Source: Terriglobales bacterium
GTDB lineage: Bacteria; Acidobacteriota; Terriglobia; Bryobacterales; Bryobacteraceae
NCBI GenBank assembly: GCA_027485675.1
Contig: JAIXQP010000023.1
Location: forward strand, 1-64,000
Reading direction: 5' to 3'
Length of the DNA: 64,000 bases
A program made the position numbers and the translations under genes. The notes under the pieces are model-generated. The model worked only from the letters and a program-made list of their open reading frames with translations. It was not told where the DNA came from and ran no database searches. Shown one piece after another: positions 23,903 to 61,476 of the stretch; the stretch's first letter is position 1, and the number at the start of each line of letters is the position of its first letter.

Positions 23903-23908
23903 TATGAT
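23903..23908 (+). promoter_or_regulatory. Leaderless -10 element, Uma2 gene
   Basis: TATGAT lies exactly 6 nt before the ATG at 23915. Initiation 6-7 nt downstream would begin the mRNA at the start codon. No -35 is clear. Confidence 0.55.
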
Positions 23909-23914
23909 GGGGGG

Positions 23915-24502
23915 ATGTCGGCGCAGCATATTCCGCGGATGAGTTTGGCAGAGTTTCTGGAACGGGAAGAGCGGGCGGAGAGCAAGAGCGAATTCTGGGA
24001 TGGGCAAATGATTGCGATGTCCGGGGGAACGTTCAATCATGCCCGGATCGGCACCAATCTGATTCACCGATTGAGCGATGCGCTGGAGAATTCGCCCTGC
24101 CAAGTGATTAATTCTGAGTTGTTGGTTCAGGCTGCACCTGGGGGACTCGTCGCATATCCGGATTTGACCGTGATCTGTGGAGAGATTCAGTTTCTTCCGC
24201 CGAAAGAGCTGGTGGTGACAAACCCGACGTTGATCATCGAAGTGCTTTCGCCGTCAACGGAACTGCGCGACCGGGGAGAGAAGTCGGCAGCGTACCGGCG
24301 CAGCGAGTCGCTACGCCAGTATGTGCTCGTCGAATCCCGGTTCCCGCAAATCGAAGTTTATACGAAGGGCGATAACGGCATCTGGTTTCTTCGGGAGTGG
24401 CACGGCCTCGAAGGGGTGTGTGAACTCACGAGCATCAACTGCACCTTACCGATGGCGCAAATCTACGATAAGGCTCGTTTTGCCGATACTCAGGGCGGCT
24501 GA
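23915..24502 (+). CDS. Uma2 family (DUF820) putative endonuclease
   Basis: 195 aa. It is a PD-(D/E)XK-fold protein of the Uma2/DUF820 family: N-terminal MSLAEFLEREE with SKSEFWDGQMIAMSGG, then YPDLTVICG, then PTLIIEVLSPSTELRDRGEK, which supplies the acidic and lysine residues of the site (Asp in YPDL, Glu in IIEVL, Lys in RGEK). These proteins are abundant in cyanobacteria and other genomes with many copies, and their role is poorly known. An in-frame codon at 23864 would lengthen it by 17 residues. I chose 23915 because it matches the family N-terminus and has a -10 hexamer 6 nt upstream. It is a monocistronic gene between the regulator and the DUF1080 gene. Confidence 0.8.
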   Translation: MSAQHIPRMSLAEFLEREERAESKSEFWDGQMIAMSGGTFNHARIGTNLIHRLSDALENSPCQVINSELLVQAAPGGLVAYPDLTVICGEIQFLPPKELVVTNPTLIIEVLSPSTELRDRGEKSAAYRRSESLRQYVLVESRFPQIEVYTKGDNGIWFLREWHGLEGVCELTSINCTLPMAQIYDKARFADTQGG

Positions 24503-24583
24503 GGCGGCCGTCTTTGTTGGTGTGGAGCTTGTCGAAGCCGGGGGCTTGGGCGAACAACTAACGCATAGAGCGGTTCGATATTG

Positions 24584-24589
24584 TACACT
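24584..24589 (+). promoter_or_regulatory. Leaderless -10 element, DUF1080 gene
   Basis: TACACT lies 7 nt before the GTG at 24597. There is no Shine-Dalgarno. This supports GTG as the initiation codon. Confidence 0.4.
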
Positions 24590-24596
24590 TCGCTTC

Positions 24597-25202
24597 GTGA
24601 CTCGAAGGCAATGGATCGCGTGGGCGGGCGTGGCGCAGGCGGCGGAGACCTGGCAGCCGCTGTTCGACGGCAAGTCGATCGCGGGATGGAAGGAGACGGC
24701 GTTTCCGCGGCGCGGGAAGGTGAGCGTGGCGGAGGGGCGGATCCTGTTAGAGGCCGGGGCGCCATTGACCGGGGTGACCTACACGGGGACGTTTCCGCAG
24801 ACGAACTACGAAGTCCGCTATGAGGCGATGCGGGTTTCCGGTGGGGACTTTTTCGCGAGCCTGACCTTTCCCGTGGGCGCGAACTTCGCGACGTTCGTGC
24901 TGGGCGGATGGGGCGGCGACATCATCGGCGTTTCGAGCATTGATGGCTGGAACGCTTCTGAGAACGAGACGCGAAACTACTTCACCTTCGAAGACGGCAA
25001 GTGGTACGCGATCCGCGTGGCCGTGCGGCCGGAACGGATCGAGTGCTGGATTGGGGCCGAGCGCGTGGTGAACGTCGGCATCGGTGGGCGGCAGATTACG
25101 ATGCGGCCGGGGGATATCGAGCTCTCCGCACCGCTCGGGATCGCTTCGTACAATACGACCGGGGCGGTGCGGAGAATCGAGTACAGGACCGTTAGCCGTT
25201 AA
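24597..25202 (+). CDS. DUF1080 (3-keto-disaccharide hydrolase type) protein
   Basis: 201 aa from a GTG. The upstream frame extends through the Uma2 gene and is not used. A short export-like N-terminus (VTRRQWIAWAGVAQAAE) precedes a concanavalin-like jelly roll that starts with TWQPLFDGKSIAGWKE, the hallmark of DUF1080. NYEVRYEAMRVSGGDFFASLTFPVG and the closing LGIASYNTTGAVRRIEY follow. Members bind or hydrolyse glycosides, including 3-keto-disaccharides formed by Gfo/Idh-type dehydrogenases. A Gfo/Idh gene lies next to it in convergent orientation, overlapping by 11 bp (25192-25202). Confidence 0.8.
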   Translation: MTRRQWIAWAGVAQAAETWQPLFDGKSIAGWKETAFPRRGKVSVAEGRILLEAGAPLTGVTYTGTFPQTNYEVRYEAMRVSGGDFFASLTFPVGANFATFVLGGWGGDIIGVSSIDGWNASENETRNYFTFEDGKWYAIRVAVRPERIECWIGAERVVNVGIGGRQITMRPGDIELSAPLGIASYNTTGAVRRIEYRTVSR

Positions 25203-26757
25203 GGGTCCAGTTGGGGCGGTAGGTGCGCTTCAGGTAGTCGTTGGCTTCGGGGACGTTGGTGATGCGGCCCGTGGCGGGATCGTAGGTGAGCTTCTTGCCG
25301 ACGCGGTGGGCGACGAGGCCGAGCAGCATCTGCTCCATCATGGTGCCGGAGTAGTCGAAGTCGCAGTGGGTTTTGCTGCTGGTGCCGTGGGTGACGTTGT
25401 TGAGCTTGCCTTTGCAGGCGTCGAGCCATTCGCGCTGGAAGACGTCGACGGTGCGGTTGGGCGGGTTGCCGGCGAGGATGCCGGGGATGGCCGGGTTCGG
25501 CAGGCCGAGCGCGGCGGGGACCTTGCCGTTGAGCATCTGGATGTCCGGGAAGCCGGAGGGGCCAGGCTGCTGGTTGGGTTGGGCCGTGAAGCCGGGAGGC
25601 AGCGGCGCGGGGGCGCCAGAGGGACGGCGGGGCGGCACGTTCTGCGTCACCTGACCGGTGCCACCGATGAGGGGCAGGGGATCGGCGCGGCGCTTGTAGT
25701 AGGTCAGGTCGCCGTCGTCGTTGTTGGGGAGGATGATGCGGCTGGTGAAGTCGGCGAAGATGCTGCCTTTGGTGCCTTCGAAGATGGCGCCGTTGGGGAC
25801 CTTCGAGATGTCGATGTAGCCGCGGGGCGCCTCCGGCTTCTGGCCGCCCTGGTACCAGAGGACCTCGATGGGGCCGCGCCAGGAGTTGGCGGGGTGTTCA
25901 AAGGTGACCTTGAGCCGGACGGGGCAGATATCGGGGTTGTACTTGTCGGTGACCTCCTGATCGACTTCGATGCCGGTGGGGGCGCCGGCGTCGATGGCGT
26001 TCCAGAGGAGGTCCATGGTGTGGGCGCCCATGTCGCCCATCTGGCCGACGCCGAAGTCGCGGTACATGTTCCAGAAGAGGCAGTTGAGGCCGGCGGAGCC
26101 GCCGAAGTATTGGGGGCTATAGGGGTGATAGGGCGAGGGGCCGATCCACTGCTCGTAGTGGAGTTCGGGCGGCGGCTGGCCCTGGGCGGTGGGGTAGCCG
26201 GGGCGGGGGAGTTGGCGGGCGTCCCAGCCGTGGACGCGCTTGAGTTCGCCGATGGCGCCGTCGAGGATGAGCTCGCGGAGGCGTTCGAAGTTGGGGTAGG
26301 CGTGGCGCTGGGTGCCGTGCTGGGTGGCGACTTTGGATTTGTTCTTGAGGTAGTTGGCGCGGACGGTGCGGACCTCTTCGACGGAGATGCCGAGGGGTTT
26401 TTCGCAGAAGACGTGCTGGCCGCGATTGATGGCCCAGTTGGCGATGAAGGCGTGGTGGTGATCGGCGGTGCAGATGATGACGGCTTCGACGTCTTTCTGG
26501 TCGAGACACTGGCGCCAGTCGTAGTAGGTTTTGGCTTTGGGGAAGATGGCGAGGGCTTCTTTGGTGCGGAGGTCGTTGACGTCGCAGAGGGCGACGACGT
26601 TTTCGTCGCGGAGGACGTTGTAGTGAGCGGTGCCGCGGCCCCAGACGCCGATGAGGGCGACGTTGAGGCGGTTGGAGGGGGCGGTCTGGCCGCGGAGGAG
26701 GCCGGAGCGGAGGATGGTGAGGCCGGCGGCGGATTGCAGGATTTGACGGCGTTGCAT
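25192..26757 (-). CDS. Gfo/Idh/MocA family oxidoreductase, exported
   Basis: 521 aa from the ATG at 26757. An upstream in-frame start would add 19 residues but destroy the Tat-like signal MQRRQILQSAAGLTILRSG. A Rossmann domain (NVALIGVWGRGTAHYN) and the EKP motif (VFCEKPLGISVEEV) are followed by the substrate domain with an inserted Pro/Gln-rich loop (about 385-430). It is longer than typical members (350-440 aa) because of this loop. It probably oxidises a sugar or polyol in the periplasm. TACAAT lies 7 nt before the chosen ATG, supporting that start and a leaderless message. Confidence 0.85.
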   Translation of the reverse strand: MQRRQILQSAAGLTILRSGLLRGQTAPSNRLNVALIGVWGRGTAHYNVLRDENVVALCDVNDLRTKEALAIFPKAKTYYDWRQCLDQKDVEAVIICTADHHHAFIANWAINRGQHVFCEKPLGISVEEVRTVRANYLKNKSKVATQHGTQRHAYPNFERLRELILDGAIGELKRVHGWDARQLPRPGYPTAQGQPPPELHYEQWIGPSPYHPYSPQYFGGSAGLNCLFWNMYRDFGVGQMGDMGAHTMDLLWNAIDAGAPTGIEVDQEVTDKYNPDICPVRLKVTFEHPANSWRGPIEVLWYQGGQKPEAPRGYIDISKVPNGAIFEGTKGSIFADFTSRIILPNNDDGDLTYYKRRADPLPLIGGTGQVTQNVPPRRPSGAPAPLPPGFTAQPNQQPGPSGFPDIQMLNGKVPAALGLPNPAIPGILAGNPPNRTVDVFQREWLDACKGKLNNVTHGTSSKTHCDFDYSGTMMEQMLLGLVAHRVGKKLTYDPATGRITNVPEANDYLKRTYRPNWTLNG

Positions 26758-26764
26758 GGCCGTG

Positions 26765-26770
26765 ATTGTA
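26765..26770 (-). promoter_or_regulatory. Leaderless -10 element, second Gfo/Idh gene
   Basis: On the minus strand, TACAAT (26770-26765) ends 7 nt before the ATG at 26757. It matches five of six bases of TATAAT. Confidence 0.5.
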
Positions 26771-26822
26771 TCGGGTTGGGCGGGGCGGTGGGAAGATGTG
26801 AGAATGTGAGGCAAGAGATCCT

Positions 26823-27551
26823 ATGCTGCGTGGTTATCTGAGATTGCCCGGCATTGTGTTGGCCTTGGCCGGTGTGCTGCTCGCGCAGGAGATGCCCGGC
26901 CCCAGAATTGTTGTCGACAAAGATTTTGTCCACAACGCGCCGCCCGAGGTCAGAGCGCTGAGGTCGGCGGTTTTCAGCATGTTTTCCACGGGGCAAGATA
27001 TCCTGCGAAACGACCCGCGAACCTTGGGAATGAGATCGGCGGCGAGCCTCATGCCCATGGCCGAACTGCCATCCGGGGAGAGCGATACGATTTTGGTCGG
27101 AAAGGTTGAGAAAGTGCACTCGCACCTGACGACGAACCGCGGCGCAATCTATCGGGAGTTCACGGTCCTTGTGGAGGAGACACTGTCGGAGAAAGTTCCT
27201 AGCTCGCTAAGTGCGCCAACGGCACTGCAAGGAAAGGTCCGCATCGCGATGCTGCAACCCGGCGGTACATTGCAACTGAGTGATGGGACTCAATACACCC
27301 ATGCCTTCACGGGATACGGCCGAGAGTTGGAGGCTGGGGGGCGGTACGTTCTGTTCTTACGGCATCGGCTCTTCTGTGAATGCTACGTTCGAATCAAGGC
27401 GTGGGAGTTGCGCGACGGTTCGGTGTATCCGATGTCACCGGACGACCTTGCCGCTGCGTCGATGAATCGGTCCGTCTACGCCGGAATGAAGGAGGATCTT
27501 TTCCTGGAACGGGTGAGGCAGGAACGTGCACAGCTTGAGCCTATTCGCTGA
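26823..27551 (+). CDS. Secreted protein of unknown function
   Basis: 242 aa with a signal peptide (MLRGYLRLPGIVLALAGVLLAQ). The mature part is mixed alpha/beta, with a segment SDTILVGKVEKVHSHL and later GYGRELEAGGRYVLFLRHR. That is the style of small OB-fold-like or metalloprotease-inhibitor-like secreted domains, but I do not recognise a family. There are two cysteines close together (LFCECYVR). GAGG about 11 nt before the ATG may serve as ribosome-binding site. It is divergent from the Gfo/Idh gene, and its stop overlaps the convergent MFS gene by 11 bp. Confidence 0.7.
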   Translation: MLRGYLRLPGIVLALAGVLLAQEMPGPRIVVDKDFVHNAPPEVRALRSAVFSMFSTGQDILRNDPRTLGMRSAASLMPMAELPSGESDTILVGKVEKVHSHLTTNRGAIYREFTVLVEETLSEKVPSSLSAPTALQGKVRIAMLQPGGTLQLSDGTQYTHAFTGYGRELEAGGRYVLFLRHRLFCECYVRIKAWELRDGSVYPMSPDDLAAASMNRSVYAGMKEDLFLERVRQERAQLEPIR

Positions 27552-28740
27552 TTGGCGATGCTGTCCTGCTGGGGTTGACGAACAGCCAGAGGACGGCGGC
27601 GGTGACGGTGGTGGCGGCGGAGAGGTAGAGGACGGCGTTCCAGTCGTGGAAGCGGTCGAGGACCAGGCCCATGATGGCCGGGGAGGCGAAGCCGGCGGCG
27701 TTCGAGGCGGCGTTCATCAGGCCGGAAACCGCTCCTCCCGACGTCTCGCCTATGTCGGTCGCCGAGGACCAGGCCGCTCCTAAATATAGATCGACGCCGC
27801 CGGCGGCGCTGGCCATGAGTAAGGCACCGAGGGCCGGGGCTGGGTGCCAGATGCCGGCTGTGAACAACGCCGCACCCGTGAATAACGAAACGAAGCCAAT
27901 GAGCGTCCGGGCGCGGCGGTCGCCTAATCGCCGGGAAAGGAGATCCGTCAGGAAGCCGCCGATCCAGGTGGCGGCGACCCCGAACAAGAGCGGGAGGCCG
28001 GCGTAGTAGGACGCTTCCGTGATCGCCATGCCGCGTTGCTCGCGGAGGTAAGTCGGGAACCAAGTGATGTAGAACTGCCATAGGAACGTTGATCCGAAGG
28101 CCGTTCCGAGGAGACACCACAAGCGGCGGGAGCGGAGGAGGACGGCCCAGGGGATGGGTTCGTTTTGGGTTTGGGCGGCGGTGGGCGGCGGGTTGCGGTA
28201 GAAGGCGTACCAGGCCGCGGCCCACAAGATTCCGAACGCACCGAAGACGAGGAAGGGGGCCTGCCATCCATAACGGAGGACCAGGAAACCGGCTACCGGC
28301 GGTGCCAAGGCGCCGCCGAGACGGCCTCCTCCCAGGAAGGCGCCGAAGGCCGTGGCGCGCTCGTTGATCGGGATCCAGCGGGAGAAGGCCGAGGCGACGG
28401 CGGGGGAGAAGGCGGCTTCGAGGGCGCCAAAGACGAAGCGGATGACGAGGAGGGAGGCGTAGCTCCAGGCGGCGGCCGTCAGGGCCGTGAACAGCGACCA
28501 GCCGGCGATGGCGAAGGCGACCAGGCCGCGGGAGCCGTAGCGGTCCGCAAGGACGCCCCAGGGGGTTTGGCCGAGGAAATAGGACAGGCTGAAGATGCTG
28601 AAGACGAGGCCCATCTGCGTTTGCGAGAGGCCGAAGGAGGTGCGGAGTTCGGGGCCGGCGATGGCGATGCAGACACGGTCCGTGTAACAGACCATGTTGA
28701 TGACGAGCGCGAGGAGGACGAGCCGGTGGCGGTAGGCCAT
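27541..28740 (-). CDS. MFS transporter, anion:cation symporter-like
   Basis: 399 aa with about 12 hydrophobic segments. It opens with VINMVCYTDRVCIAIAGPEL, as in the ACS family (hexuronate, glucarate and related organic anions). The MFS signature loop between TM2 and TM3 (WGVLADRYGSRGLVA) and the TM4 region (FVFGALEAAFSPA) follow. It is an inner-membrane importer or exporter of a small organic anion. It starts 3 bp after the M81 peptidase stop (28744-28746) on the same strand, so the two are almost certainly co-expressed, and the transported molecule may be the peptidase product or substrate. Confidence 0.85.
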   Translation of the reverse strand: MAYRHRLVLLALVINMVCYTDRVCIAIAGPELRTSFGLSQTQMGLVFSIFSLSYFLGQTPWGVLADRYGSRGLVAFAIAGWSLFTALTAAAWSYASLLVIRFVFGALEAAFSPAVASAFSRWIPINERATAFGAFLGGGRLGGALAPPVAGFLVLRYGWQAPFLVFGAFGILWAAAWYAFYRNPPPTAAQTQNEPIPWAVLLRSRRLWCLLGTAFGSTFLWQFYITWFPTYLREQRGMAITEASYYAGLPLLFGVAATWIGGFLTDLLSRRLGDRRARTLIGFVSLFTGAALFTAGIWHPAPALGALLMASAAGGVDLYLGAAWSSATDIGETSGGAVSGLMNAASNAAGFASPAIMGLVLDRFHDWNAVLYLSAATTVTAAVLWLFVNPSRTASPISE

Positions 28741-28743
28741 GGG

Positions 28744-30207: not shown

Positions 30208-30225
30208 AGGCCGAAGGTCTTGCGA

Positions 30226-30231
30226 TAGGCT
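30226..30231 (+). promoter_or_regulatory. Possible leaderless -10 element, VanY-like gene
   Basis: TAGGCT lies 6 nt before the ATG at 30238. It is a weak match to TATAAT, but the position equals that seen at the other leaderless starts. Confidence 0.3.
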
Positions 30232-30237
30232 ATCAAG

Positions 30238-33105: not shown

Positions 33106-33122
<17 letters not shown>
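31299..33122 (-). CDS. CHASE2-domain sensor histidine kinase
   Basis: 607 aa membrane sensor. A first transmembrane helix (YWLALAAAGIVALLVAWAPL) leads into an extracytoplasmic CHASE2 domain (about 40-300; VILAIDDASYKSIG and GKVVFVGATSQSAVRDRLMTPY are typical). Three to four further TM helices (300-385) follow, then a HisKA domain with the H-box FVTHEMRTPLTAIQG. The ATPase domain has N-box YNLLTNAIKYS, G1 DQGMGM, F-box FTKFYR and G2 GTGIGLSIV. It is complete. No response regulator is adjacent. Its start overlaps the 3' end of the Xaa-Pro aminopeptidase gene by 17 bp, so the kinase is probably translated from the same message. Confidence 0.9.
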
Positions 33123-36073
<2,951 letters not shown>

Positions 36074-36083
36074 GATAACTGAT

Positions 36084-37274: not shown

Positions 37275-37328
37275 GGAGCTTTTGGAGTTGGACGGGGCAG
37301 TGGACTACCATAAGAGTTTTCCCTCCCG

Positions 37329-39995: not shown

Positions 39996-40640
39996 TTACC
40001 CGCGGCGGCGGAGCTGGCTTAGGACCAGGAGGCCGGCGCCCATCAGCAGGTAGGTGCTGGGTTCGGGGACGTCACTGCCGGGGGCTTCAAAGAGGGTCTG
40101 GGAGTACCGGGAGCCAGCGGTGGGTTCGAAAAAGACGCCGTTTTTGGCGGACTTGCCTTGGCTGGCCGCGACGAGAGCGGAGGCGGCGGTAAGGATCCGG
40201 GCGTTGGTGGTGCCGGCGCCCTGGACGCGGCCGATGGCGAGTCCATCGCCGTTATCGGCGACGATGTCCCAGGCGGCGAGTCGGAAGGCGGCGGCCTGCC
40301 AGCCTTGGGTCATGGCGGGGACGTAGGAGTTGAACATCCAGGCCAGGCGCTCGCCCTGGTTGACCTGGCTGCCGGTGAGACGGTTGACCGAGACGGCGTC
40401 GAGACGGAGCGCGACGAAGGGATCGGCGCAGAAGAGGAGCGCGGTGAGCCCGCTATCGAAACGGACGCCGAGCTGGCCGGCATAGATGTTCGTGTTCTGA
40501 TTGTCGAACTTCACGGTGATCTGTTCGAACAGCGCCGGCACGGTGCCGTCGTAGGTCATGGTCATCGCAGATACTGGTGCAACCGAAAGGCCAATCAGTG
40601 CGAGGAGGTTGGTGAGGCGGTAGGTCCGTTTCCCTGTCAT
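39996..40640 (-). CDS. PEP-CTERM sorted protein
   Basis: 214 aa. The signal peptide (MTGKRTYRLTNLLALIGLSVAPVSA) and C-terminal sorting tail VPEPSTYLLMGAGLLVLSQLRRRG (PEP motif, hydrophobic helix, Arg cluster) mark an exosortase substrate destined for the cell surface. The middle (YAGQLGVRFDSGLTALLFCADPF, then AWMFNSYVPAMTQGWQAAAFRLAAWDIV) resembles the all-beta surface domains common in PEP-CTERM proteins. No exosortase gene is in the window. GATACT lies 6 nt before the ATG, and an intrinsic terminator follows, so it is a monocistronic unit. Confidence 0.85.
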   Translation of the reverse strand: MTGKRTYRLTNLLALIGLSVAPVSAMTMTYDGTVPALFEQITVKFDNQNTNIYAGQLGVRFDSGLTALLFCADPFVALRLDAVSVNRLTGSQVNQGERLAWMFNSYVPAMTQGWQAAAFRLAAWDIVADNGDGLAIGRVQGAGTTNARILTAASALVAASQGKSAKNGVFFEPTAGSRYSQTLFEAPGSDVPEPSTYLLMGAGLLVLSQLRRRG

Positions 40641-40646
40641 GGATTT

Positions 40647-40652
40647 AGTATC
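40647..40652 (-). promoter_or_regulatory. Leaderless -10 element, PEP-CTERM gene
   Basis: On the minus strand, GATACT (40652-40647) ends 6 nt before the ATG at 40640. There is no Shine-Dalgarno. Confidence 0.45.
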
Positions 40653-40901: not shown

Positions 40902-40910
40902 TGGTATGAT
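40902..40910 (+). promoter_or_regulatory. Extended -10 promoter, voltage-gated channel gene (leaderless)
   Basis: TGGTATGAT is an extended -10 (TGnTATGAT). The hexamer ends 6 nt before the ATG at 40917. A second in-frame ATG at 40911 would start inside the spacer, so 40917 is preferred. Confidence 0.55.
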
Positions 40911-41749: not shown

Positions 41750-41758
41750 TGTTATCAT
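41750..41758 (+). promoter_or_regulatory. Extended -10 promoter, His-rich TonB receptor gene (leaderless)
   Basis: TGTTATCAT is an extended -10 with TATCAT (41753-41758) ending 6 nt before the ATG at 41765. This supports 41765 over the in-frame TTG at 41741. Confidence 0.55.
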
Positions 41759-43992: not shown

Positions 43993-44001
43993 TGGTACCC
44001 T
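43993..44001 (+). promoter_or_regulatory. Possible extended -10 promoter, MATE gene (leaderless)
   Basis: TGGTACCCT has the TGn extension and a TANNNT hexamer ending 6 nt before the ATG at 44008. It begins just after the receptor stop codon. Confidence 0.4.
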
Positions 44002-44007: not shown

Positions 44008-45345
44008 ATGCTTTCGGTTCGCGGCCACGTGCTCCGCATGGCCGCGCTCGCCTGGCCAATTATTGTCGCCGAACTCGGCTGGATGTCGATGGGCCTGGTG
44101 GATACCGTCATGGTGGGCCCGTTGGGCAAAGAAGCCATCGGCGCTGTGGGCGTGGCGAATATCCTATACGACACCTTCGGGATCTTCTCGCTCGGCTTGC
44201 TGCTGGGTTTGGACCCGCTGGTAGCGCAGGCCTTCGGCGCGGGACGGCCCGCCGAGGCGAACCGGTACCTGCGTCAGGGCGTGTGGCTGGCGCTGTTTCT
44301 GACGCCGCCGACGATGGTGATGGCGCTGAGCCTGCCGGTGCTGATGCAGTGGATTGGCGTGCAGGGGGAGGTGCGGGCGCTGGCGGAACCGTACATTCTG
44401 GCGCTGTCGACGGGAACTCTGCCCCTGCTGCTTTACGCCGCATTCCGGCGGTTTCTGCAGGCGACCAACCGGGTCCGGCCGGTGATGATTGCCCTGGTTT
44501 CGGCCAACCTGATCAATGCCGGGGCTAACTACGTGCTGATCCACGGCGCCTGGGGGTTGCCGGCGTTTGGGGTAACCGGATCGGGGTGGGCGACGGCGGC
44601 GGCCCGGGTCTTTCTGGCGGGCGCGCTGATTGTGGCGACTTACTGGGACGACGTCACCGGGCTTTGGGCCAAGGGACAGCGCTGGGGAAAGCCGCGGCTC
44701 GACGACTTGCGGGAACTGCTACGGCTGGGGGCGCCGGCGGCGGGGCAGATCGGCTTGGAGATTGCCGTCTTCGGGGCGGCGACCATGTTGGCCGGGCGCC
44801 TATCGACCGCTTCGCTGGCGGCCCACCATATTGCCTTGAACATGGCGGGGGTGACGTTCATGGTGCCGCTGGGGATCTCTTCGGCGGGAGCGGTCGCCGT
44901 GGGGCAGGCGCTGGGCCGGGGCGAGCCGGAGGAGGCCAAGCGGGCGGGTTGGGTGGCGCTGGGTTTTGCGGCGAGCTTCATGATGGTGGCGGGAGGGGTG
45001 TTCGCGTTGGCGCCCCAGTTGGTGCTTGGCGCGTTCACGGATGATCCGGAGCTGTTGGCCATCGGGGTGGGGCTGCTGCGAATCGCCGCGGTGTTTCAGC
45101 TTTTTGACGGGTTGCAGGTGGCGGCGACGGGCGTTCTGCGCGGGGCGGCGGAGACGCGGCTGCCGATGCTGGCGAATCTGGCCGGGCATTGGGCGCTGGG
45201 GCTGCCCCTGGGCTACTATCTCTGCTTTGCGCGCGGCATGGACGCCGCCGGACTGTGGGCCGGCCTGTCGGTAGGGCTGATTGTGGTGGCGGTGGTGCTC
45301 GTGTGGCAGTGGTGGCGATTGCCGCTGCGGCCTGTGTCATCCTGA
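44008..45345 (+). CDS. MATE family efflux transporter
   Basis: 445 aa, about 12 transmembrane helices in two homologous halves. The first half opens MAALAWPIIVAELGWMSMGLVDTVMVGPLGKEAIGAVGVA, and the second has LGAPAAGQIGLEIAVFGAATMLAGRLSTASLAAHHIALNMAGVTFMVPLGIS. It is a Na+- or H+-driven exporter of cationic drugs or metabolites in the inner membrane. The start is the ATG at 44008; the longer frame lies inside the TonB receptor gene. The DUF58 gene begins 4 bp after its stop. Confidence 0.9.
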   Translation: MLSVRGHVLRMAALAWPIIVAELGWMSMGLVDTVMVGPLGKEAIGAVGVANILYDTFGIFSLGLLLGLDPLVAQAFGAGRPAEANRYLRQGVWLALFLTPPTMVMALSLPVLMQWIGVQGEVRALAEPYILALSTGTLPLLLYAAFRRFLQATNRVRPVMIALVSANLINAGANYVLIHGAWGLPAFGVTGSGWATAAARVFLAGALIVATYWDDVTGLWAKGQRWGKPRLDDLRELLRLGAPAAGQIGLEIAVFGAATMLAGRLSTASLAAHHIALNMAGVTFMVPLGISSAGAVAVGQALGRGEPEEAKRAGWVALGFAASFMMVAGGVFALAPQLVLGAFTDDPELLAIGVGLLRIAAVFQLFDGLQVAATGVLRGAAETRLPMLANLAGHWALGLPLGYYLCFARGMDAAGLWAGLSVGLIVVAVVLVWQWWRLPLRPVSS

Positions 45346-45349
45346 AGCC

Positions 45350-46408
45350 ATGCGCCGGTTCTGGCAGCGACTGAAGAAGGCCCTGCGGCCGCGGATTGCG
45401 CAGCGGATTACCCGGGCCGGGCTTTGGTTTACCATCACGATTTTGCTGACGGGCGTGGGCGCGTTTCTTTCGGCCAATAATCTGATCTTTCTGATTCTCT
45501 CGGCGCTGCTGGCGACGCTCGTGGTGAGTGGCAACCTGAACCGGTTAACGCTGGCGGGTCTGGAGGTGGAGTTTGAGCCTCCCGAACACCTGTTCGCGCA
45601 GGAGACCGCCTCCGGACGCATCGTGATTCGGAACACGAAGTCCTGGTTCCCAAGCTTTGCCCTGCGCCTTTCGAGCGCGAACGATGATGGACTGCGGCTG
45701 CCGGTGTTCATTCCGTTGATCGCGCCGGGGGACGTGGTGACGTTTTATGGGGATGTGCGGTTCCGGCGCCGGGGCCGCTACCGCGAGAACGGCTTTGAGT
45801 TCTCGTCGCGGTTTCCGTTCGGCTTTGCCGAGCGCCGAGCCGCGGTGACGCTTCTGGCGGAGGTGTTGGTGTACCCGGAGTTGGAGGAGCGTTGCTTGAA
45901 CGAGCCGCTCTTCGTTGAACTGTTAGCGGAGGCGGAGGTCCGCCGGCAGGGCCGGGGTACGGAGTTTCATCAACTGCGGCCTTACCGGTTTGAAGACGAC
46001 GCCCGGCATATCGACTGGCGGTCTTCGGCGCGGCACGGCGAGATGTATCTGCGGGAGTTCGCCGTCGAGCAAATGGAGGACGTGGAGTTGTGGCTCGACC
46101 TGGGCGGTTGGCGTCTGCCGGAGTTTGAACAGGCCGTTCGCGCCGTCGCGTCGCAGTCGTTTGAGTTGAACCGGCGCGGGCTGCGGGTTACGCTGCGGAC
46201 CCAGGAGTGCGACCTGGCCGTACCGGAACAGACCGACATCTACGGGTTGCTCAAGTATCTGGCGCTGGTGGAGGCGGAGCCGTTGGCGCGGCCGTTTTCG
46301 GAGTCCGGCGTCTCGGCCGCCGCGCAGATTTTGCTCTATACCCCGGTGCGCGAGCGGGCGCCGGCGGCTTTACTCCACCGGGCCATCTGCCCGAGCGAGC
46401 CTGCTTAG
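45350..46408 (+). CDS. DUF58 domain membrane protein
   Basis: 352 aa. Two transmembrane helices near the N-terminus (about 25-65) are followed by a beta-rich region and the DUF58 core (GRGTEFHQLRPYRFEDDARHIDWRSSARHGEMYLREF, about 205-240). DUF58 proteins usually stand beside MoxR ATPases and VWA proteins in chaperone or envelope operons. Neither is adjacent here. It begins 4 bp after the MATE gene, so it is probably translated from that message. Its stop overlaps that of the convergent protease on TTAG (46405-46408). Confidence 0.85.
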   Translation: MRRFWQRLKKALRPRIAQRITRAGLWFTITILLTGVGAFLSANNLIFLILSALLATLVVSGNLNRLTLAGLEVEFEPPEHLFAQETASGRIVIRNTKSWFPSFALRLSSANDDGLRLPVFIPLIAPGDVVTFYGDVRFRRRGRYRENGFEFSSRFPFGFAERRAAVTLLAEVLVYPELEERCLNEPLFVELLAEAEVRRQGRGTEFHQLRPYRFEDDARHIDWRSSARHGEMYLREFAVEQMEDVELWLDLGGWRLPEFEQAVRAVASQSFELNRRGLRVTLRTQECDLAVPEQTDIYGLLKYLALVEAEPLARPFSESGVSAAAQILLYTPVRERAPAALLHRAICPSEPA

Positions 46409-47286
46409 GACGGGCGGCGGCGCAGGAGGAAGATCGCCGTGAGTCCGGCGCCGAACAAGAGATAGGTCCCTGGTTCCGGCACCGCGCTGATCGCCGAACT
46501 GGTCCAACTCCGGGCCATCTCGTCGTAGAGATTGATGTGTAAGCCGAAGTAACTCCCGGAGGTATAAGCTCCGGACGAGACTTGCGGGACCGTGCTCGCC
46601 GAGGCGATGCCGATGATGACGTTATTCAGAAACATCGGGCCACCGGAGTCCCCCGCGGCGATGATTCCATAGTTCGCCGGTTCACTGGACGACGCAAAGT
46701 CATGGCCCGTGATCAGAGGGCTATCCAGTTCGCCCGCCAGAATGCCCAGCAGGCGATTCTGCGCGGCGCGGCGCGTGCCCCCCGGCAATGCTCCGGAGGG
46801 GTTGCCGCCGAGCCCATAGCCGACCATATCGACGACGGTTCCCGTCGTGTCGCTGAACACGAGCGGAACCGTGCCGTTGGTGATCGTGTAAACGGAGGCG
46901 TCCAGGGGCGCTGCGGTCGCCAGACGGAGAATGGCGAGGTCGTACTCCTGAATCCCCGAGTTCGAAGCGCGATTGGCGTAGAGCGGGTGGAGTTCGGCGC
47001 TGTTCACCCCTACCGTGGCGAGGCCGGAGGCGGTCTGGAAGGTGACGTTCCAATTGTTGGCTGGGGCCACGCAGTGGCCGGCGGTGAGGATGACGGTGGG
47101 CGCGACCAGGGCGCCGGTGCAGCCGAAGGAGCCGCCGGCGGTGTAAGTGCCCACGATGCTCGCTACGCCGGTGAACGAATTGTTGCCCGTGATGTAGCCA
47201 GGCGACGACGTATTGTGAATCGTAATCCCGCTGGCCGTGGCGCCGGTGAGGCACAGGAGAAGAGCGCACTGGCGGACAGATGCCAT
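46405..47286 (-). CDS. Trypsin-like (S1) serine protease with PEP-CTERM tail
   Basis: 293 aa. After a signal peptide, the chymotrypsin fold shows a complete triad: His in TAGHC (about 70), Asp in YDLAILRL (about 118) and Ser in GDSGGP (about 215). The C-terminus VPEPGTYLLFGAGLTAIFLLRRRPS is a PEP-CTERM sorting signal, so the protease should be processed by an exosortase and displayed or released at the surface. It is one of two PEP-CTERM proteins within 7 kb. TAACTT lies 6 nt before the ATG. Confidence 0.9.
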   Translation of the reverse strand: MASVRQCALLLCLTGATASGITIHNTSSPGYITGNNSFTGVASIVGTYTAGGSFGCTGALVAPTVILTAGHCVAPANNWNVTFQTASGLATVGVNSAELHPLYANRASNSGIQEYDLAILRLATAAPLDASVYTITNGTVPLVFSDTTGTVVDMVGYGLGGNPSGALPGGTRRAAQNRLLGILAGELDSPLITGHDFASSSEPANYGIIAAGDSGGPMFLNNVIIGIASASTVPQVSSGAYTSGSYFGLHINLYDEMARSWTSSAISAVPEPGTYLLFGAGLTAIFLLRRRPS

Positions 47287-47292
47287 ACCCTG

Positions 47293-47298
47293 AAGTTA
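47293..47298 (-). promoter_or_regulatory. Leaderless -10 element, PEP-CTERM protease gene
   Basis: On the minus strand, TAACTT (47298-47293) ends 6 nt before the ATG at 47286. There is no Shine-Dalgarno. Confidence 0.45.
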
Positions 47299-48359: not shown

Positions 48360-48389
48360 ACGGATCTACAGGGAGGAGGTATTCCAGCC

Positions 48390-48632: not shown

Positions 48633-48636
48633 CGCC

Positions 48637-49569: not shown

Positions 49570-50281
49570 GCGCATTGCCGCCGTAGATGGAGTCCGTACC
49601 GGCGAAGTTGAAGAACTTGCCGCCGGCCTCTTCGACGAGAACTTTGAGCGGGCACAGGTCCCAGGGTTGGGCGCTGGGCTCCACCCAGACTTCCGCCTTA
49701 CCGGTGACGATCATCATGCAGTCCGGGCCACCGCTCAGACTCCGCACCGCCCAGAAGTTGGCGCAGAAGTCCATCACCTGGTCGCGATAGGACCACTTCT
49801 TGTTGTTTTGCAGGCCGTTGAAGCAGACCACGGCGCGATCCAGCCGCTCGACGCTCGATACCTTGCAGCGGACGTCGTTGCACCAGGCGCCGCCGCCGAC
49901 GCTGGCGAAGTAGGTTTCTGCCATCACGGGATAGTGGGCGCAGCCGGCGACCGGCTGGCCGTTTTCCTCGAGGCCCAGCAGCACGCCCCACAGCATGTTG
50001 CCGCGGACGAAATCGCGCGTGCCGTCAATGGGATCGATGATCCAGGTGCGGCCGGAGCGGGACGGTTTGGCGACGCCTTCTTCGCCGCGCTGCCCGTCTT
50101 CGGGGAACATCTCTTCGAGCATCCGCGCGATGAGTTTCTCGCTTTCCTTGTCGGCGATCGTAACCGGGGAATCGTCGCTTTTGTCTTCCATCTGGATGCC
50201 CTGCTCAAAGTAACGCATGGCGAGCGAGGAACTGGCTTTCGAGATGCGGCGCATTGCCGCGATTTCGCGTTCGTAATTCAT
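49517..50281 (-). CDS. Inositol monophosphatase family / histidinol-phosphatase-like
   Basis: 254 aa. It is a Mg2+-dependent phosphatase with the full set of metal residues: Glu in GQRGEEGV (about 67), Asp residues in WIIDPIDGTRDFVRG (about 81-95), and the late WDLCPLKVLVEEAGGKFFNF (usually WDxAPxxxIVxEAGG). RDFVRG after DGT is closer to histidinol-phosphate phosphatase (HisN) than to classical inositol phosphatase, but both remain possible. Cytoplasmic. TAATAT lies 6 nt before the ATG. It shares a 19-bp promoter with the divergent acyl-CoA ligase. Confidence 0.9.
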   Translation of the reverse strand: MNYEREIAAMRRISKASSSLAMRYFEQGIQMEDKSDDSPVTIADKESEKLIARMLEEMFPEDGQRGEEGVAKPSRSGRTWIIDPIDGTRDFVRGNMLWGVLLGLEENGQPVAGCAHYPVMAETYFASVGGGAWCNDVRCKVSSVERLDRAVVCFNGLQNNKKWSYRDQVMDFCANFWAVRSLSGGPDCMMIVTGKAEVWVEPSAQPWDLCPLKVLVEEAGGKFFNFAGTDSIYGGNALICTPPFEAMLRQAFVK

Positions 50282-50287
50282 CTATGG

Positions 50288-50293
50288 ATATTA
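50288..50293 (-). promoter_or_regulatory. Leaderless -10 element, IMPase gene
   Basis: On the minus strand, TAATAT (50293-50288) ends 6 nt before the ATG at 50281. It overlaps the plus-strand -10 almost completely. Confidence 0.6.
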
Positions 50294-50294
50294 T
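50289..50294 (+). promoter_or_regulatory. Leaderless -10 element, acyl-CoA ligase gene
   Basis: TATTAT ends 6 nt before the ATG at 50301. Only 19 bp separate the two divergent start codons, so the two -10 elements share five positions. Confidence 0.6.
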
Positions 50295-50300
50295 CTAACG

Positions 50301-52094: not shown

Positions 52095-52509
52095 CGGTGA
52101 TGCGGCGATGGTCCCCATCGCCGTGTTCGATGGTCAGGATGATCCGGTTGGGGGGCAGGAAGCGCGCGAACTTCTCGCCCCATTCGATCAGCACGAGGGC
52201 GTTGGCTTCGAAGATCTCTTCGAGGCCGAGCGTAAAGAGTTCGCGCGGCTCTTCGAGGCGATAGAGATCGATGTGATAGACGCGCGTGGGCTCGCCGTAC
52301 TCGTGGATCAGCGAGAACGTAGGGCTGGTGACTTCGGCCGCCGGAGCGACGCCGAGGGCTTCGACGAGAGCCGAGACCAGGGTCGTCTTGCCGGCGCCGA
52401 GGTTGCCCGTGAGTTGGACCACGGCGCGGCGGGGGAGCAGGGCGGCGAGTTCGGCGGCGGCGGCGCGGGTCTCTTCGACACGGGCGGGGGACCAGGTATA
52501 GCTAGGCAC
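52006..52509 (-). CDS. tsaE: tRNA threonylcarbamoyladenosine biosynthesis ATPase
   Basis: 167 aa from a GTG at 52509, overlapping the nnr stop by 8 bp. P-loop LTGNLGAGKTTLV (about 30-42), then SPTFSLIHEY, VYHIDLYRLE and LVLIEWGEKF are all conserved TsaE blocks. It drives the TsaBDE complex that makes t6A37 on ANN-decoding tRNAs. The family is essential in most bacteria. The last 20 or so residues are Ser/Pro-rich and lie antisense to the acyl-CoA ligase 3' end; they look non-conserved. TsaE next to nnr and near other essential genes is a familiar arrangement. Confidence 0.9.
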   Translation of the reverse strand: MPSYTWSPARVEETRAAAAELAALLPRRAVVQLTGNLGAGKTTLVSALVEALGVAPAAEVTSPTFSLIHEYGEPTRVYHIDLYRLEEPRELFTLGLEEIFEANALVLIEWGEKFARFLPPNRIILTIEHGDGDHRRITATGDLLLTRTSPESAPSTSPAPSSSAPSS

Positions 52510-56927: not shown

Positions 56928-57700
56928 GAATTTTGGGTATGGGCAATGCCCGGAGTCATTTCGAACTCCTCTTCCGGCGTCAGGTACAGACGCGTGAGGC
57001 CGTTGCGGAGATGGGTAAACGCTGTGTCGACATCGTCGGCAAACTGGAAGATATGCAGGTCTTCCGGGGAGATCAACCCGTATTTGGCCAGCGCGTCGAA
57101 GTTGAAAATCTCCTTCCAGAACGACGTCCCGTAGAGGAGTACGACGATGGGTTTATGCAGCTTGCGGGTCTGCACCAGCGTGAGGATTTCGAAGAGCTCG
57201 TCCATGGTGCCGAAGCCGCCGGGGAATACAACGAGCGCCTTGGCCAGGTAGGCGAACCAGAACTTGCGCATGAAGAAGTAGCCGAACTCCATGCTGAGGT
57301 CGGGCGTGATGTAGGGATTGGGCGCCTGCTCGAAGGGCAGGGCGATGTTGAGGCCCACCGAGATGCCGCCCGCATCGAAAGCCCCGCGGTTGGCGGCTTC
57401 CATGATGCCGGGGCCGCCGCCGGTGGTGACGACGAAGCGCTGCGCCGAAGTGGGCAGGCTGTCGCTCCATTGTGTCAACCGCTTGGCCAGTTCGCGGCAC
57501 TCGGTGTAGTAGCGGGCCATGGGCCCTTCCTCGTGAATGCGCGCCGAACCGAACATCGCGATCGTGTCCCGGATCTTCTCCTTGCGGAAGACGCGGAGCG
57601 GGCCGAGATACTCAGATAGCATCCGGACGCTCCGGGCTTCCGAGGAGCCGAGAAACTCATCATCATGGAAAAACATTGGAGGTTTGGCGGGAGGATTCAT
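56924..57700 (-). CDS. LOG family nucleotide phosphoribohydrolase-like protein
   Basis: 258 aa of the TIGR00730/LOG family (lysine decarboxylase-like fold). Signature motifs are GGGPGIMEAANRGA (about 94-107) and PGGFGTMDELFE (PGGxGTxxE, about 159-170). Members release cytokinin-type bases or hydrolyse nucleoside monophosphates. In bacteria they also process damaged purine nucleotides. The N-terminal 45 residues (RSVRMLSEYLGPLRVFRKEKIRDTIAMFGSAR) are an extension typical of the longer bacterial form. The start is in ATGA overlap with lpxD (57697-57700). Confidence 0.9.
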   Translation of the reverse strand: MNPPAKPPMFFHDDEFLGSSEARSVRMLSEYLGPLRVFRKEKIRDTIAMFGSARIHEEGPMARYYTECRELAKRLTQWSDSLPTSAQRFVVTTGGGPGIMEAANRGAFDAGGISVGLNIALPFEQAPNPYITPDLSMEFGYFFMRKFWFAYLAKALVVFPGGFGTMDELFEILTLVQTRKLHKPIVVLLYGTSFWKEIFNFDALAKYGLISPEDLHIFQFADDVDTAFTHLRNGLTRLYLTPEEEFEMTPGIAHTQNS

Positions 57701-58737
57701 TCGTTGCCTTTCGTTTTGGCCTCAAGTTCGGCGAGACGCTTTTCCAATTCTCGCACCGTACGCACCATATCCGGCAGTTTGGGAAACGCGGTGACGGCGC
57801 GCAGCCAGGTCCGGTTATCAAAGGCCGGCGAGCCGGAAACCAGGGTGCCGGCCGGGACGTCGTGGCCGATGCCGCTCTGGGCGTAGGCGATGGCGTTGTC
57901 GTGGATGGTCAGGTGGCCGGAGACGCCCACCTGTCCAGCCAGCAGGACGCTCTTGCCGAGGATGGTGCTGCCGGCCAGGCCGACCTGGGAGCAGATGATA
58001 TTGTCCTCGCCCACGACGCTCGCGTGGCCGATCTGCACGAGATTGTCAACCTTGGCGCCGCGTTTGATGCGGGTCTCGCCGACCGTGGCGCGGTCGATGG
58101 CCGTGAGCGCTTGAATCTCGACATCGTCCTCGATGACCACGATGCCGCTTTGCACAATCTTGTATTGGGTCCCGGTGGCCGTCTTCGCGAAGCCGAAGCC
58201 ATCGCCGCCGATGACGGCGCCGTTTTGCAGGATCACCCGGTGGCCGATCTGGCAGAACTCCCGCACGGTGACGTGCGAATGGGCCAGGAAGTCGTCACCG
58301 ATCCGGGCGCCTTCGTAGATCGAAACATGCGGATGCACCACCGCCCGCTGGCCGATGGTGACGTGGGCGCCGACGGCGACGAACGGGCCGATGGAGGCGC
58401 CTTCGCCAATGGTGGCCGTGGGGTGGATGGAGGCCAGGGGATGGATCCCCGGTTCGGGCCGCGGCGGCTGATAGAAGAGCTCGAGCGCCCGGGCGAAGTC
58501 ATGATACGGATTCTTGCTTTCGAGCGTCGCCATCCCTTCAATCGGCGCGTTGGCCAGGATCGCCGAAGCTCGGGAGGACTTTACCTTCGGCGCGTATTTC
58601 GGGTTAGCCAGGAAAGTCAACTGGCCGGGGACGGCTTGTTCCATGCCGCAAACGCCAGTAATGCGCAGGGATGGGTCGCCATGTAGAATGCAGCCGAGCT
58701 TATCTGCCAGGTCGCCCAGAGTTAGGGAAGGAGTCAT
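57697..58737 (-). CDS. lpxD: UDP-3-O-acylglucosamine N-acyltransferase
   Basis: 346 aa, third step of lipid A biosynthesis. The N-terminal uridine-binding domain (TLGDLADKLGCILHGDP, LTFLANPKYAPKV) is followed by a left-handed beta-helix of hexapeptide repeats (about 100-310; IHPTATIGEGASIGPFVAVG, VILQNGAVIGGDGFGF). The catalytic His is in QIGHASVVGEDNIICSQVGLAGS. A short helical C-terminus (VRTVRELEKRLAELE) ends the chain. It shows that the organism makes lipopolysaccharide and therefore has an outer membrane, consistent with the TonB receptors. It is isolated from the usual lpxA/fabZ cluster and leads a six-gene overlapping operon. Confidence 0.95.
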   Translation of the reverse strand: MTPSLTLGDLADKLGCILHGDPSLRITGVCGMEQAVPGQLTFLANPKYAPKVKSSRASAILANAPIEGMATLESKNPYHDFARALELFYQPPRPEPGIHPLASIHPTATIGEGASIGPFVAVGAHVTIGQRAVVHPHVSIYEGARIGDDFLAHSHVTVREFCQIGHRVILQNGAVIGGDGFGFAKTATGTQYKIVQSGIVVIEDDVEIQALTAIDRATVGETRIKRGAKVDNLVQIGHASVVGEDNIICSQVGLAGSTILGKSVLLAGQVGVSGHLTIHDNAIAYAQSGIGHDVPAGTLVSGSPAFDNRTWLRAVTAFPKLPDMVRTVRELEKRLAELEAKTKGNE

Positions 58738-58746
58738 AAGGAGAAG

Positions 58747-58752
58747 TACACT
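58747..58752 (+). promoter_or_regulatory. Leaderless -10 element, plug-less barrel operon
   Basis: TACACT ends 6 nt before the ATG at 58759, within the 21-bp gap from the divergent lpxD. Confidence 0.45.
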
Positions 58753-58758
58753 GTTATT

Positions 58759-61476
58759 ATGCAGAAGTCTGTTCCCTTAGCCGGATGGATTCTTCTGTTG
58801 CCCTGCTCGCTGTGGGCGCAGGGAGAGTTGCAGAAAGCGGCTGAGGAGTTCAAAGCGGCGACCCGGGAATTGGGGTTGCGAGCGGATTCGCCGGCCCGTT
58901 CGGCCGGCAAACGGCAGTACCCCTGGCAGACGTGGCACGGCCGCTTGTCCTACAACCTGCGCAATGACGTGCTCGACGCGGTTCCGCACGAAATCGCCCA
59001 ACGCGGGGGCGGGAAGAACCTGCTGCGGCGCGGGCAGTTTGGCTTCAATGTCGCCGGTCCGGTGATCGGCAAGTCAACGTTCGCCTCGCTCTCCTACGAA
59101 GGCGTCCGCGAACGCATTGGCCGGAATTCGCTGCGGACCGTAGCGATTGCGCCGGAACGCACCGGTGACTTCTCGCAGACCGTCGATAGCGCCGGCGACC
59201 CGCAGCAGATCTTCGATCCTGCGACTACCCGGCTGAACCCGGACTTTAATCCGGCGCGGCCCGTTTCGACGAGCAACCTCGAATACATCCGCCAACCGTT
59301 TCCTGGCAGAGTGATTCCTTCCAGCCGGCTGGATCCGGTGGCGATGCGCGGCGTCTCGCTCTACCCGCTGCCCAACGCCAACGCCGGCCCCTTTTTCCGG
59401 AACAACTACTTCGTCGTTTCGCCCGAAACGAACAAGGCGGACGGGATCATCTTCAAGCTCGACCACACCCTCGATGAAAAGAGCCGCCTGAGCCTGTCGC
59501 TTTCAGCCACCAACGGCTTCGCGGTTGCCTCTCGGCTGATGCCGACCATCGCCGATCCCGGCGCGAACGACCGAACCTATAGCGCCCGGCGCGGCACCGT
59601 CGAACACATCCTAACGTTGAGCCCGCGCACCATCAACACCCTGACCCTCGACCTGGCCACCGACCGCAGCGACGCGAGCCGCCCCGGCGAAGTGTTTCCG
59701 GACTATCGTTTCTCCGGCAACTACCTGGGCATGGGCCGGGCCAACCCGGTGCAGTTGACGGCCCACAATACCTATTCGCTTTCCGACGGCTACTCCACCC
59801 GCATCGGCAAGCACAGCCTCCGCGCCGTGGCCCGGTTCACCCACTATCAGGTGCATGCGTTTCTGCCGCATTATCCGCAGGGCCGGTATACGTTTGGCCC
59901 CGGCTTCACCTCGCTGCCCGGCATCAACAACACCGGCTACTCCTTTGCCAGCTTCCTGTTGGGTGCGGCGGAGTATTCCGAAGCCAGTGTCTTTGCTTCC
60001 CCGTCGTACTGGCGGCGCAACACCGCCAGCCTGGTCCTGCGCGATCAGTATGAGGTCACCAAACGATTGAACCTGACGCTTAGCGGCAACATGGACATCT
60101 CGACGCCGCGGACGGAAAAGTACAACCGGATTTCGACCGTGCGCCTCGACGTGATCAACCCGGCGAATGGCCGCCCCGGCGCCCTGGTGGCCGGGGGCGC
60201 GGCGCAGCCGGTGCGCGTCCGACCGGGCGCCAGCGTGGGCTTTGCCTGGAACCCCACGGGCAACCCCAAAAGCGTCGTGCGCGGCAGCGCCGGGCTCAGC
60301 TTTCAAGCCGTGCCGGTTTACACGTCGCAATGGGGCACGCAGGGGTTTAACGGCACGCCGACATCGATTTCGACCAATACCCAGTTGGCTCCCGCGATCC
60401 TGCTGCGCAATGGCATGCCGGCGCTCGAACGGCCGCTGCCGGATCTCCGGCTCGATTTTGCCAACAATACGGTGGCCGATCTTGTGGAACCGAACGCCAC
60501 GCAGCCGTTTTATCAGTCCGCCTCGCTGAGCTACGAGCGCGAACTGCCCGGCCAACTGATTGTCGCCGGCACGCTGGCGCACTCGCGGGGGCAGCGGCTG
60601 TTTGTCTCCAATTCCGGCGTGAACCTGAACGCGATTCCGCTTGAAAATCTGCGGTTCCGCGATGAACTGAATAACGAGTCCTTCCGCCGCGAACTGCGCC
60701 CCTACCCGCAGTATCAGCGCTTCGACGTCTTCAGCGCCTGGCCCATCGGGAACTACAAGCGGGACGCCGGTTCGGTGCGCGTCGAGAAGCGGTCCACGAG
60801 CGGCCTGGGCCTGACCGCCACCTATGAGGTCTCCCGGCAGATGGACGATTACTCCGGCCCCTACGGCGTGCAGGACTTCTATAACCGGCGGGCCGAATGG
60901 GCCCTGACCGCCTACAATATTCCGCACCGCGTTTCGCTCTCGTACGCCTATGAGCTGCCCATCGGCTCCAAAAAGTCGCTGCTTGCTTATAACGACTGGC
61001 GGCGATACCTCGTTGACGGCTGGTCGATCAGCGGCATGTCCACGTTGCTGAGCGGCGAACCCATCGCCTTGCGGCCGCAGTTCAACAATACGGGCGGCCT
61101 GGTGGAAGCGCTGCGGGTGAACGTCGTGCCGGGCATCGACCCGAACGTCTCCAGCCGCACCCCCGATCTCTGGTTCAACCCGGCTGCCTTCGACAATCCG
61201 GAGAACTTCACGCTCGGTGACGGGCCGCGGACCCACCCGACGCTGCGCAATCCGGCCAGCCAGAACCACGACCTTTCGGTGACCAAGCGGTTCGCCATCG
61301 ACACCGAACGCGCGCTGGAACTGCAGGCCACCGGCTTCAACTTCGTCAACACCGCGAACTGGACGAACCCGGACCCGGTGATCGGCCCCGCCTCGACGCC
61401 GAACGTGAACGCGGGCCGGATTATCGGATCGGTCGGCGGCCGCGTGATTCAGGTTGGCTTGAGGTTAAGCTTTTGA
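58759..61476 (+). CDS. Oar-like outer-membrane beta-barrel lacking the plug and regulatory domains
   Basis: 905 aa. The signal peptide (MQKSVPLAGWILLLPCSLWAQ) is followed by only about 35 charged, helix-prone residues (ELQKAAEEFKAATRELG). The chain then enters directly at the first barrel segment (TWHGRLSYNLRNDVLDAVPH, then GFNVAGPVIGKSTFASLSYEGVRERIG), which lines up with FHGSVFEFLRNDKLDA and FGAAVGGPIKRSS in the receptor at 10268. The barrel proceeds as in Oar receptors (GRVIPSSRLDPVAMRGVSLYPLPNAN, and GYSFASFLLGAAEY) and ends in VIQVGLRLSF. About 230 N-terminal residues, including the plug, are absent, so it may not be TonB-gated. It overlaps the VWA gene in TTGA. Confidence 0.85.
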   Translation: MQKSVPLAGWILLLPCSLWAQGELQKAAEEFKAATRELGLRADSPARSAGKRQYPWQTWHGRLSYNLRNDVLDAVPHEIAQRGGGKNLLRRGQFGFNVAGPVIGKSTFASLSYEGVRERIGRNSLRTVAIAPERTGDFSQTVDSAGDPQQIFDPATTRLNPDFNPARPVSTSNLEYIRQPFPGRVIPSSRLDPVAMRGVSLYPLPNANAGPFFRNNYFVVSPETNKADGIIFKLDHTLDEKSRLSLSLSATNGFAVASRLMPTIADPGANDRTYSARRGTVEHILTLSPRTINTLTLDLATDRSDASRPGEVFPDYRFSGNYLGMGRANPVQLTAHNTYSLSDGYSTRIGKHSLRAVARFTHYQVHAFLPHYPQGRYTFGPGFTSLPGINNTGYSFASFLLGAAEYSEASVFASPSYWRRNTASLVLRDQYEVTKRLNLTLSGNMDISTPRTEKYNRISTVRLDVINPANGRPGALVAGGAAQPVRVRPGASVGFAWNPTGNPKSVVRGSAGLSFQAVPVYTSQWGTQGFNGTPTSISTNTQLAPAILLRNGMPALERPLPDLRLDFANNTVADLVEPNATQPFYQSASLSYERELPGQLIVAGTLAHSRGQRLFVSNSGVNLNAIPLENLRFRDELNNESFRRELRPYPQYQRFDVFSAWPIGNYKRDAGSVRVEKRSTSGLGLTATYEVSRQMDDYSGPYGVQDFYNRRAEWALTAYNIPHRVSLSYAYELPIGSKKSLLAYNDWRRYLVDGWSISGMSTLLSGEPIALRPQFNNTGGLVEALRVNVVPGIDPNVSSRTPDLWFNPAAFDNPENFTLGDGPRTHPTLRNPASQNHDLSVTKRFAIDTERALELQATGFNFVNTANWTNPDPVIGPASTPNVNAGRIIGSVGGRVIQVGLRLSF

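Follow-up and report, generated by a model that had tools for sequence, protein, structure and literature searches.

Do genes of an acidobacterial genome commonly begin transcription at the start codon itself, from a −10 box placed directly in front of the coding region? The question arises from a stretch of 64,000 nucleotides (nt) of Terriglobales bacterium (family Bryobacteraceae; contig JAIXQP010000023.1 of assembly GCA_027485675.1, positions 1 to 64,000; hereafter the window), in which an earlier note had listed fifteen start codons preceded, at 6 or 7 nt, by the hexamer TANNNT or a one-base variant of it. The assignment of the DNA to an acidobacterium in that note was right: the ThiC protein of the window shares 98% identity with its counterparts in Candidatus Sulfopaludibacter sp. 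SbA3 and in a Bryobacteraceae metagenome-assembled genome. From the analysis below, it is very probable that many genes of this genome have sigma-70-like promoters with the −10 box near the start codon and produce leaderless messages, alongside genes led by a Shine-Dalgarno (SD) site.

At the composition of these upstream regions, the chance of an exact TANNNT at one fixed offset is 1.9%, and that of a match to at least two of the three defined bases is 17%. The chance of well under 1% given previously was too low, and one-base variants are uninformative because of their 17% chance match per offset. As the fifteen starts had been picked after the fact and the chance had been underestimated, motif-blind gene calling was used as the test. 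Genes were called by a hexamer coding score, with no upstream signal used, in 1.74 Mb of the genome (22 whole or partial contigs, from a total of 6.59 Mb in 54 contigs). Of the 1,283 genes called, 1,059 scored at least 25, had usable flanks and were retained. The background was the mean TANNNT count over offsets 14–44.

Within the window, TANNNT was present at 6 or 7 nt in 7 of 40 motif-blind starts (background of 2.1%, P = 2 × 10−5). Across the 1,059 genes, the counts at offsets 5 to 10 were 18, 64, 36, 27, 23 and 11, with a background mean of 9.9 per offset, so that the peak at offset 6 (64 observed, 9.9 expected) had a P value of 2 × 10−30. The peak was still present when the genes of the window were removed (58 of 1,021). 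Among starts for which no alternative lay further upstream, 51 of 617 had the box at this offset, as did 13 of 160 in the most stringent set. At offsets 6–9 taken together, the box was found in 150 genes, with approximately 39 expected; 200 single-base shuffles of the 20-bp upstream sequences averaged 47 such genes and reached at most 64 (dinucleotide shuffles were used by Zheng et al. 2011). A signal beyond that of shuffled sequence, approximately 10–12 bp upstream, is how Zheng et al. 2011 define TA-led genes, and it was found here. The excess amounts to 10.4% of the genes, which is probably a lower bound, since miscalled starts dilute the signal. A whole-genome spacing control showed TANNNT-N6-ATG 642 times, compared to 436 for TANNNT-N12-ATG and 477 for the pattern reversed. 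The statement in the earlier note that the pattern is not a coincidence is thus borne out, and the genome-wide scoring of TANNNT at this offset against SD sites that it had proposed, run here on the 1.74 Mb, found the motif enriched and the genes carrying it poor in SD sites.

The excess was 8.3% for genes that follow a same-strand neighbour by less than 20 bp (n = 436) and 10.9% for leading genes (n = 465); these near-equal values indicate that an operon-leading position is not a requirement. The description of the listed genes as operon-leading was likewise too broad, as 41765 begins 41 bp, and 44008 17 bp, after a gene on the same strand, and neither is clearly leading. In the tightly packed genes, 45 boxes were observed at 6–9 nt, with 8.8 expected, which suggests promoters inside the presumed operons.

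An SD core was defined as GGAG, GAGG or AGGA within −18 to −4 of the start codon. Such cores were observed in 14 of the 167 TA-led genes and in 264 of the 892 remaining genes (P = 7 × 10−10), and the TA-like signal thus stands in place of the SD site on the same genes. In the box-anchored set (n = 99), position 5 of the hexamer was C in 54% and A in 32%, and a G was present two bases upstream of the box in 48%. The anti-SD sequence CCTCC was intact in 10 of 10 16S loci of the family, and in all 20 loci read among the 30 obtained for the phylum; these are the genes of relatives, as the assembly itself gave no 16S match. A system that has abandoned SD sites through loss of the anti-SD was therefore rejected, and the intact anti-SD indicates that SD-led and leaderless genes probably coexist in a mixed system.

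Of the fifteen listed starts, reading of the sequence confirmed that 13 have an exact TANNNT whose end lies 6 or 7 nt before them; the variants at 34396 and 40640 carry no weight. The claimed lack of an SD site held for 14 of the 15 and failed at 23915, which has GAGG; at 58759, a GGAG lies approximately 15 nt upstream, beyond the stretch scanned. Each of the fifteen proteins matched a Pfam entry (30238 falling slightly short of the cut-off), and they include enzymes, transporters, an ion channel, outer-membrane proteins and PEP-CTERM proteins; the query for the Uma2 protein began at 23864 rather than 23915. The boxes, with their state in a same-genus genome (G122), are as follows.

23903..23908, plus strand: TATGAT, 6 nt before ATG 23915, within the open reading frame 23864-24502 (Uma2), with GAGG nearby.
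24584..24589, plus strand: putative −10 box TACACT, 7 nt before GTG 24597 of a gene with a 3-keto-disaccharide hydrolase domain; kept in G122.
26765..26770, minus strand: putative −10 box TACAAT, 7 nt before ATG 26757, GFO/IDH/MocA oxidoreductase; identical in G122.
30226..30231, plus strand: putative −10 box TAGGCT, 6 nt before ATG 30238, PG_binding_1 (slightly under the Pfam cut-off); kept in G122.
34358..34363, minus strand: putative −10 box TATACT, 7 nt before ATG 34350, M24 peptidase, divergent from thiC; identical in G122.
34384..34389, plus strand: −10-like GATAAT, a one-base variant, 6 nt before ATG 34396, thiC; identical in G122.
36071..36076, plus strand: putative −10 box TAAGAT, 7 nt before ATG 36084, PQQ beta-propeller; no match in the G122 sequence compared (80 kb).
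40647..40652, minus strand: GATACT, a one-base variant, 6 nt before ATG 40640, PEP-CTERM protein; AATACT in G122; weak by itself.
40905..40910, plus strand: putative −10 box TATGAT, 6 nt before ATG 40917, ion channel; TAGAAT in G122.
41753..41758, plus strand: putative −10 box TATCAT, 6 nt before ATG 41765, TonB-dependent receptor, 41 bp past the preceding gene.
43996..44001, plus strand: putative −10 box TACCCT, 6 nt before ATG 44008, MatE, in a 17-bp gap between same-strand genes; TACCTT in G122.
47293..47298, minus strand: putative −10 box TAACTT, 6 nt before ATG 47286, trypsin-like, PEP-CTERM; kept in G122.
50288..50294, both strands: ATATTAT, read as TATTAT 6 nt before ATG 50301 (plus strand, AMP-binding) and as TAATAT 6 nt before ATG 50281 (minus strand, inositol monophosphatase family).
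58747..58752, plus strand: putative −10 box TACACT, 6 nt before ATG 58759, outer-membrane beta-barrel; identical in G122.

Two of the minus-strand genes, 39996-40640 and 46405-47286, encode proteins with a PEP-CTERM sorting motif, one of them with the trypsin-like domain.

For the comparison with G122, 80 kb were fetched and the alignments were read by eye; 13 of the 15 regions aligned readably. The T-A-T of the box was kept at 10 of the 11 alignable exact boxes (24597, 30238, 40917, 41765, 44008, 50301, 58759, 26757, 34350 and 47286), with a single loss at 50281. At 47286 and 41765, the box was kept within diverged flanks, the aligned start for 41765 being GTG, and at 44008 the 6-nt offset was unchanged despite altered spacer bases. 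The entire flanks of 58759 and 26757 are nearly identical in G122, and the identity of these boxes is little informative. Of the two variants, that at 34396 is identical and that at 40640 is still a variant. Over the 51 nt of 23915 that align, the box is lost; as this start also sits inside a longer open reading frame, it is doubtful and probably not a genuine case.

In the phylum at large, the TANNNT-N6-ATG to TANNNT-N12-ATG ratio was above 1 in 98 of 119 genomes (49 at P < 0.01 and one significantly below). Among the 61 genomes of the family, 56 exceeded 1, with 24 at P < 0.01 and none significantly below. This control is crude, since ATG triplets mostly occur elsewhere than at starts and the ratio is diluted in AT-rich genomes. 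One family (f22) showed more than a twofold excess, with 2,292 and 1,042 occurrences in 10 genomes. A more than twofold excess, above that of the window's own genome, was noted in these 10 genomes and in single genomes of three further families (f54, f15 and f32). Offset 6 was also scored in short stretches of individual genomes, in samples too small to be informative (7–69 genes each): 4 of 48 genes in G122, 3 of 59 in G126, 1 of 69 in G146, 1 of 56 in G160, and none in four others.

Sigma-70 promoters usually initiate approximately 7 nt downstream of the −10 hexamer, and with a box ending 6 nt before ATG this point falls on the A of the start codon. The proposed explanation is that a housekeeping-type, sigma-70-like promoter has its −10 hexamer ending 6–9 nt before the start codon, and that RNA polymerase would start on the A of ATG or no more than a few nt from it. 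The mRNA would then have no leader and no space for an SD site, and translation would begin on the 5′-terminal start codon. Around 1 in 10 genes, probably a lower bound, would use this mode beside ordinary SD-led genes.

Three other explanations were weighed. That the pattern reflects chance and selection, with the reader having picked the starts and one-base variants that fit in a 64-kb window, draws some support from the 17% rate of two-base matches and from 23915, which looks like such a pick; however, the motif-blind enrichment in the window and the genome-wide peak at offset 6 refute it as a full account. It stands for single sites only and is otherwise highly unlikely. The promoters could instead be real, with very short leaders (1–10 nt) or with the true start codon elsewhere, so that the genes would lack an SD site but have a short leader, and would not be leaderless in the strict sense. 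The spread of the boxes over offsets 6 to 9 (64, 36, 27 and 23) is in keeping with this, as is the tendency of motif-blind calls to sometimes take a downstream start (30310 instead of 30238); against it, the mode at 6 nt places the usual initiation point on the A of ATG, and 44008 keeps its offset in G122 though its spacer bases differ. We assign this explanation a small probability.

Bacterial genes often have AT-rich initiation regions, and TANNNT near the start could be a translation-level signal, an AU-rich and unstructured initiation region, with no promoter involved. The presence of the peak in packed genes of presumed operons would agree with this. However, a positioned T-A-x-x-x-T with base preferences at position 5 and two bases upstream, a peak at a single offset rather than a broad rise in AT, and the replacement of the SD site by the box, both genome-wide and in the thiC relatives described below, make a signal of this kind very improbable.

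Several observations weigh against the proposed leaderless promoters. The leaderless state of the mRNA is deduced from promoter position. There was no −35 signal (7 of 99 boxes and 2 of 40 control boxes) and no excess of the extended −10 motif TGn (16 of 99 and 7 of 40), and both elements were rejected as a defining part of these promoters. ATG usage was equal in TA-led (142 of 167, 85%) and SD-led genes (225 of 264, 85%), which could also be regarded as neutral. The excess in the family is uneven, reaching P < 0.01 in only 24 of the 61 genomes, with none in G126 and G160, and in another family of the same class (f2) it was 9% (6,117 and 5,622 occurrences over 12 genomes).

The gene thiC was followed through its 20 best-matching relatives (L026-L045). 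A −10-like box was present at 5–10 nt in 14 of the 20, none of which had an SD core, and 5 of the remaining 6 relatives had an SD core. The pattern scanned for (TANNNT or NATAAT) was looser than TANNNT, a start with a box was given preference whenever a gene offered more than one in-frame start, and the nearest relatives do not count as independent cases. From these upstream regions, thiC seems to switch between a leaderless-type and an SD mode across genera. No thiamine pyrophosphate (TPP) riboswitch was found at the gathering score in 31 acidobacterial thiC loci (L026-L055 and L061), whereas the control gave a match in 3 of 3 loci from other phyla. Any TPP match was present in only 2 of the 61 genomes of the family, under filters that miss some of the weak ones. 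A tie between leaderless thiC and riboswitch loss was not supported, as all 31 loci, leaderless or not, were without a TPP match at the gathering score.

The start codons of 50281 (minus strand) and 50301 (plus strand) are 20 bp apart and have the one self-symmetric ATATTAT in common, which could serve both genes; in G122, the box survives as read on the plus strand and is disrupted as read on the minus strand. Several other divergent pairs have one TA common to both, in ANNNTANNNT. In the 1.74 Mb, 16 head-to-head ATG pairs had both starts TA-led (gaps of 8–79 searched), with 10 of the 16 at gaps of 12–25 bp, although the sharing of bases itself raises the joint chance. With motif-blind starts, 3 pairs were TA-led on both sides at gaps of 15–29 and 3 at gaps of 30–59, compared to 2.7 and 3.8 expected under independence, and the gaps of 197 divergent pairs showed no clear peak. 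Counts of symmetric pairs in 35 genomes of f2, the only ones summed of 297 phylum genomes, were 87 at the 7/8 spacing, 34 for the reversed pattern and 68 at the 10/11 spacing; the same counts in the window's own genome were 6, 1 and 2. We tentatively raise the possibility, itself doubtful, that a short symmetric −10 box is all the promoter used by a divergent pair of leaderless genes approximately 12–25 bp apart, and that leaderless boxes lying between tightly packed genes of one strand allow operon members to be transcribed separately. In Escherichia coli, bidirectional promoters in which −10 elements are shared have been reported, with start sites mostly 18 bp apart and with 10 and 23 bp also common (PMC12825309). 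A search of the literature on leaderless genes with bidirectional promoters, judged by titles, returned nothing on this subject.

If the leaderless reading holds, gene starts in Bryobacteraceae would be best called with a promoter-aware model, and such genes would offer no leader on which a riboswitch or an SD site might operate. Soil acidobacteria would add to the groups open to studies of leaderless translation. No 5′-end mapping in an acidobacterium was found in the literature on leaderless genes, mostly judged by titles.

In Mycobacterium tuberculosis, a high-GC bacterium, a study of the leaderless transcriptome with mapped transcription starts reportedly found extensive leaderless transcripts, and leaderless genes of that species have a comparable −10 box. 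The likeness is the occurrence of leaderless genes at high GC; the difference is that the starts were mapped there, whereas they are predicted from sequence alone here. In Deinococcus radiodurans, experiments, in which mutation of the box disturbs expression, support TANNNT just upstream of open reading frames as the −10 element of leaderless mRNAs (PMC12340547). For Deinococcus-Thermus, approximately 30% of open reading frames are of this type, with experimental tests, compared to the excess of approximately 10% found here computationally (PMC12340547).

Searches of the literature on leaderless genes with Acidobacteria or Acidobacteriota gave Zheng et al. 2011 as the sole report for the phylum, as far as the available text of the sources extends; the supplementary figures of PMC12340547 span many phyla. 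In that 953-genome survey, leaderless (TA-led) genes were predicted in 3 of 3 Acidobacteria, with a mean of 13.3% and a range of 9.7–19.4 (PMC3160421), and the excess of approximately 10% observed here fits these values. As the survey already includes Acidobacteria, novelty is low, and the earlier note's implication that such genes were new for acidobacteria does not stand. The principle is already established, and the present case is a well supported addition to the known TA-led genes. It shares with those the same TANNNT approximately 12 bp upstream, counted from the first T (PMC3160421), and it differs in that it offers a gene-level account of an uncultured Bryobacteraceae genome with conservation data, where the portions of the survey at hand give no gene-level account for an acidobacterium.

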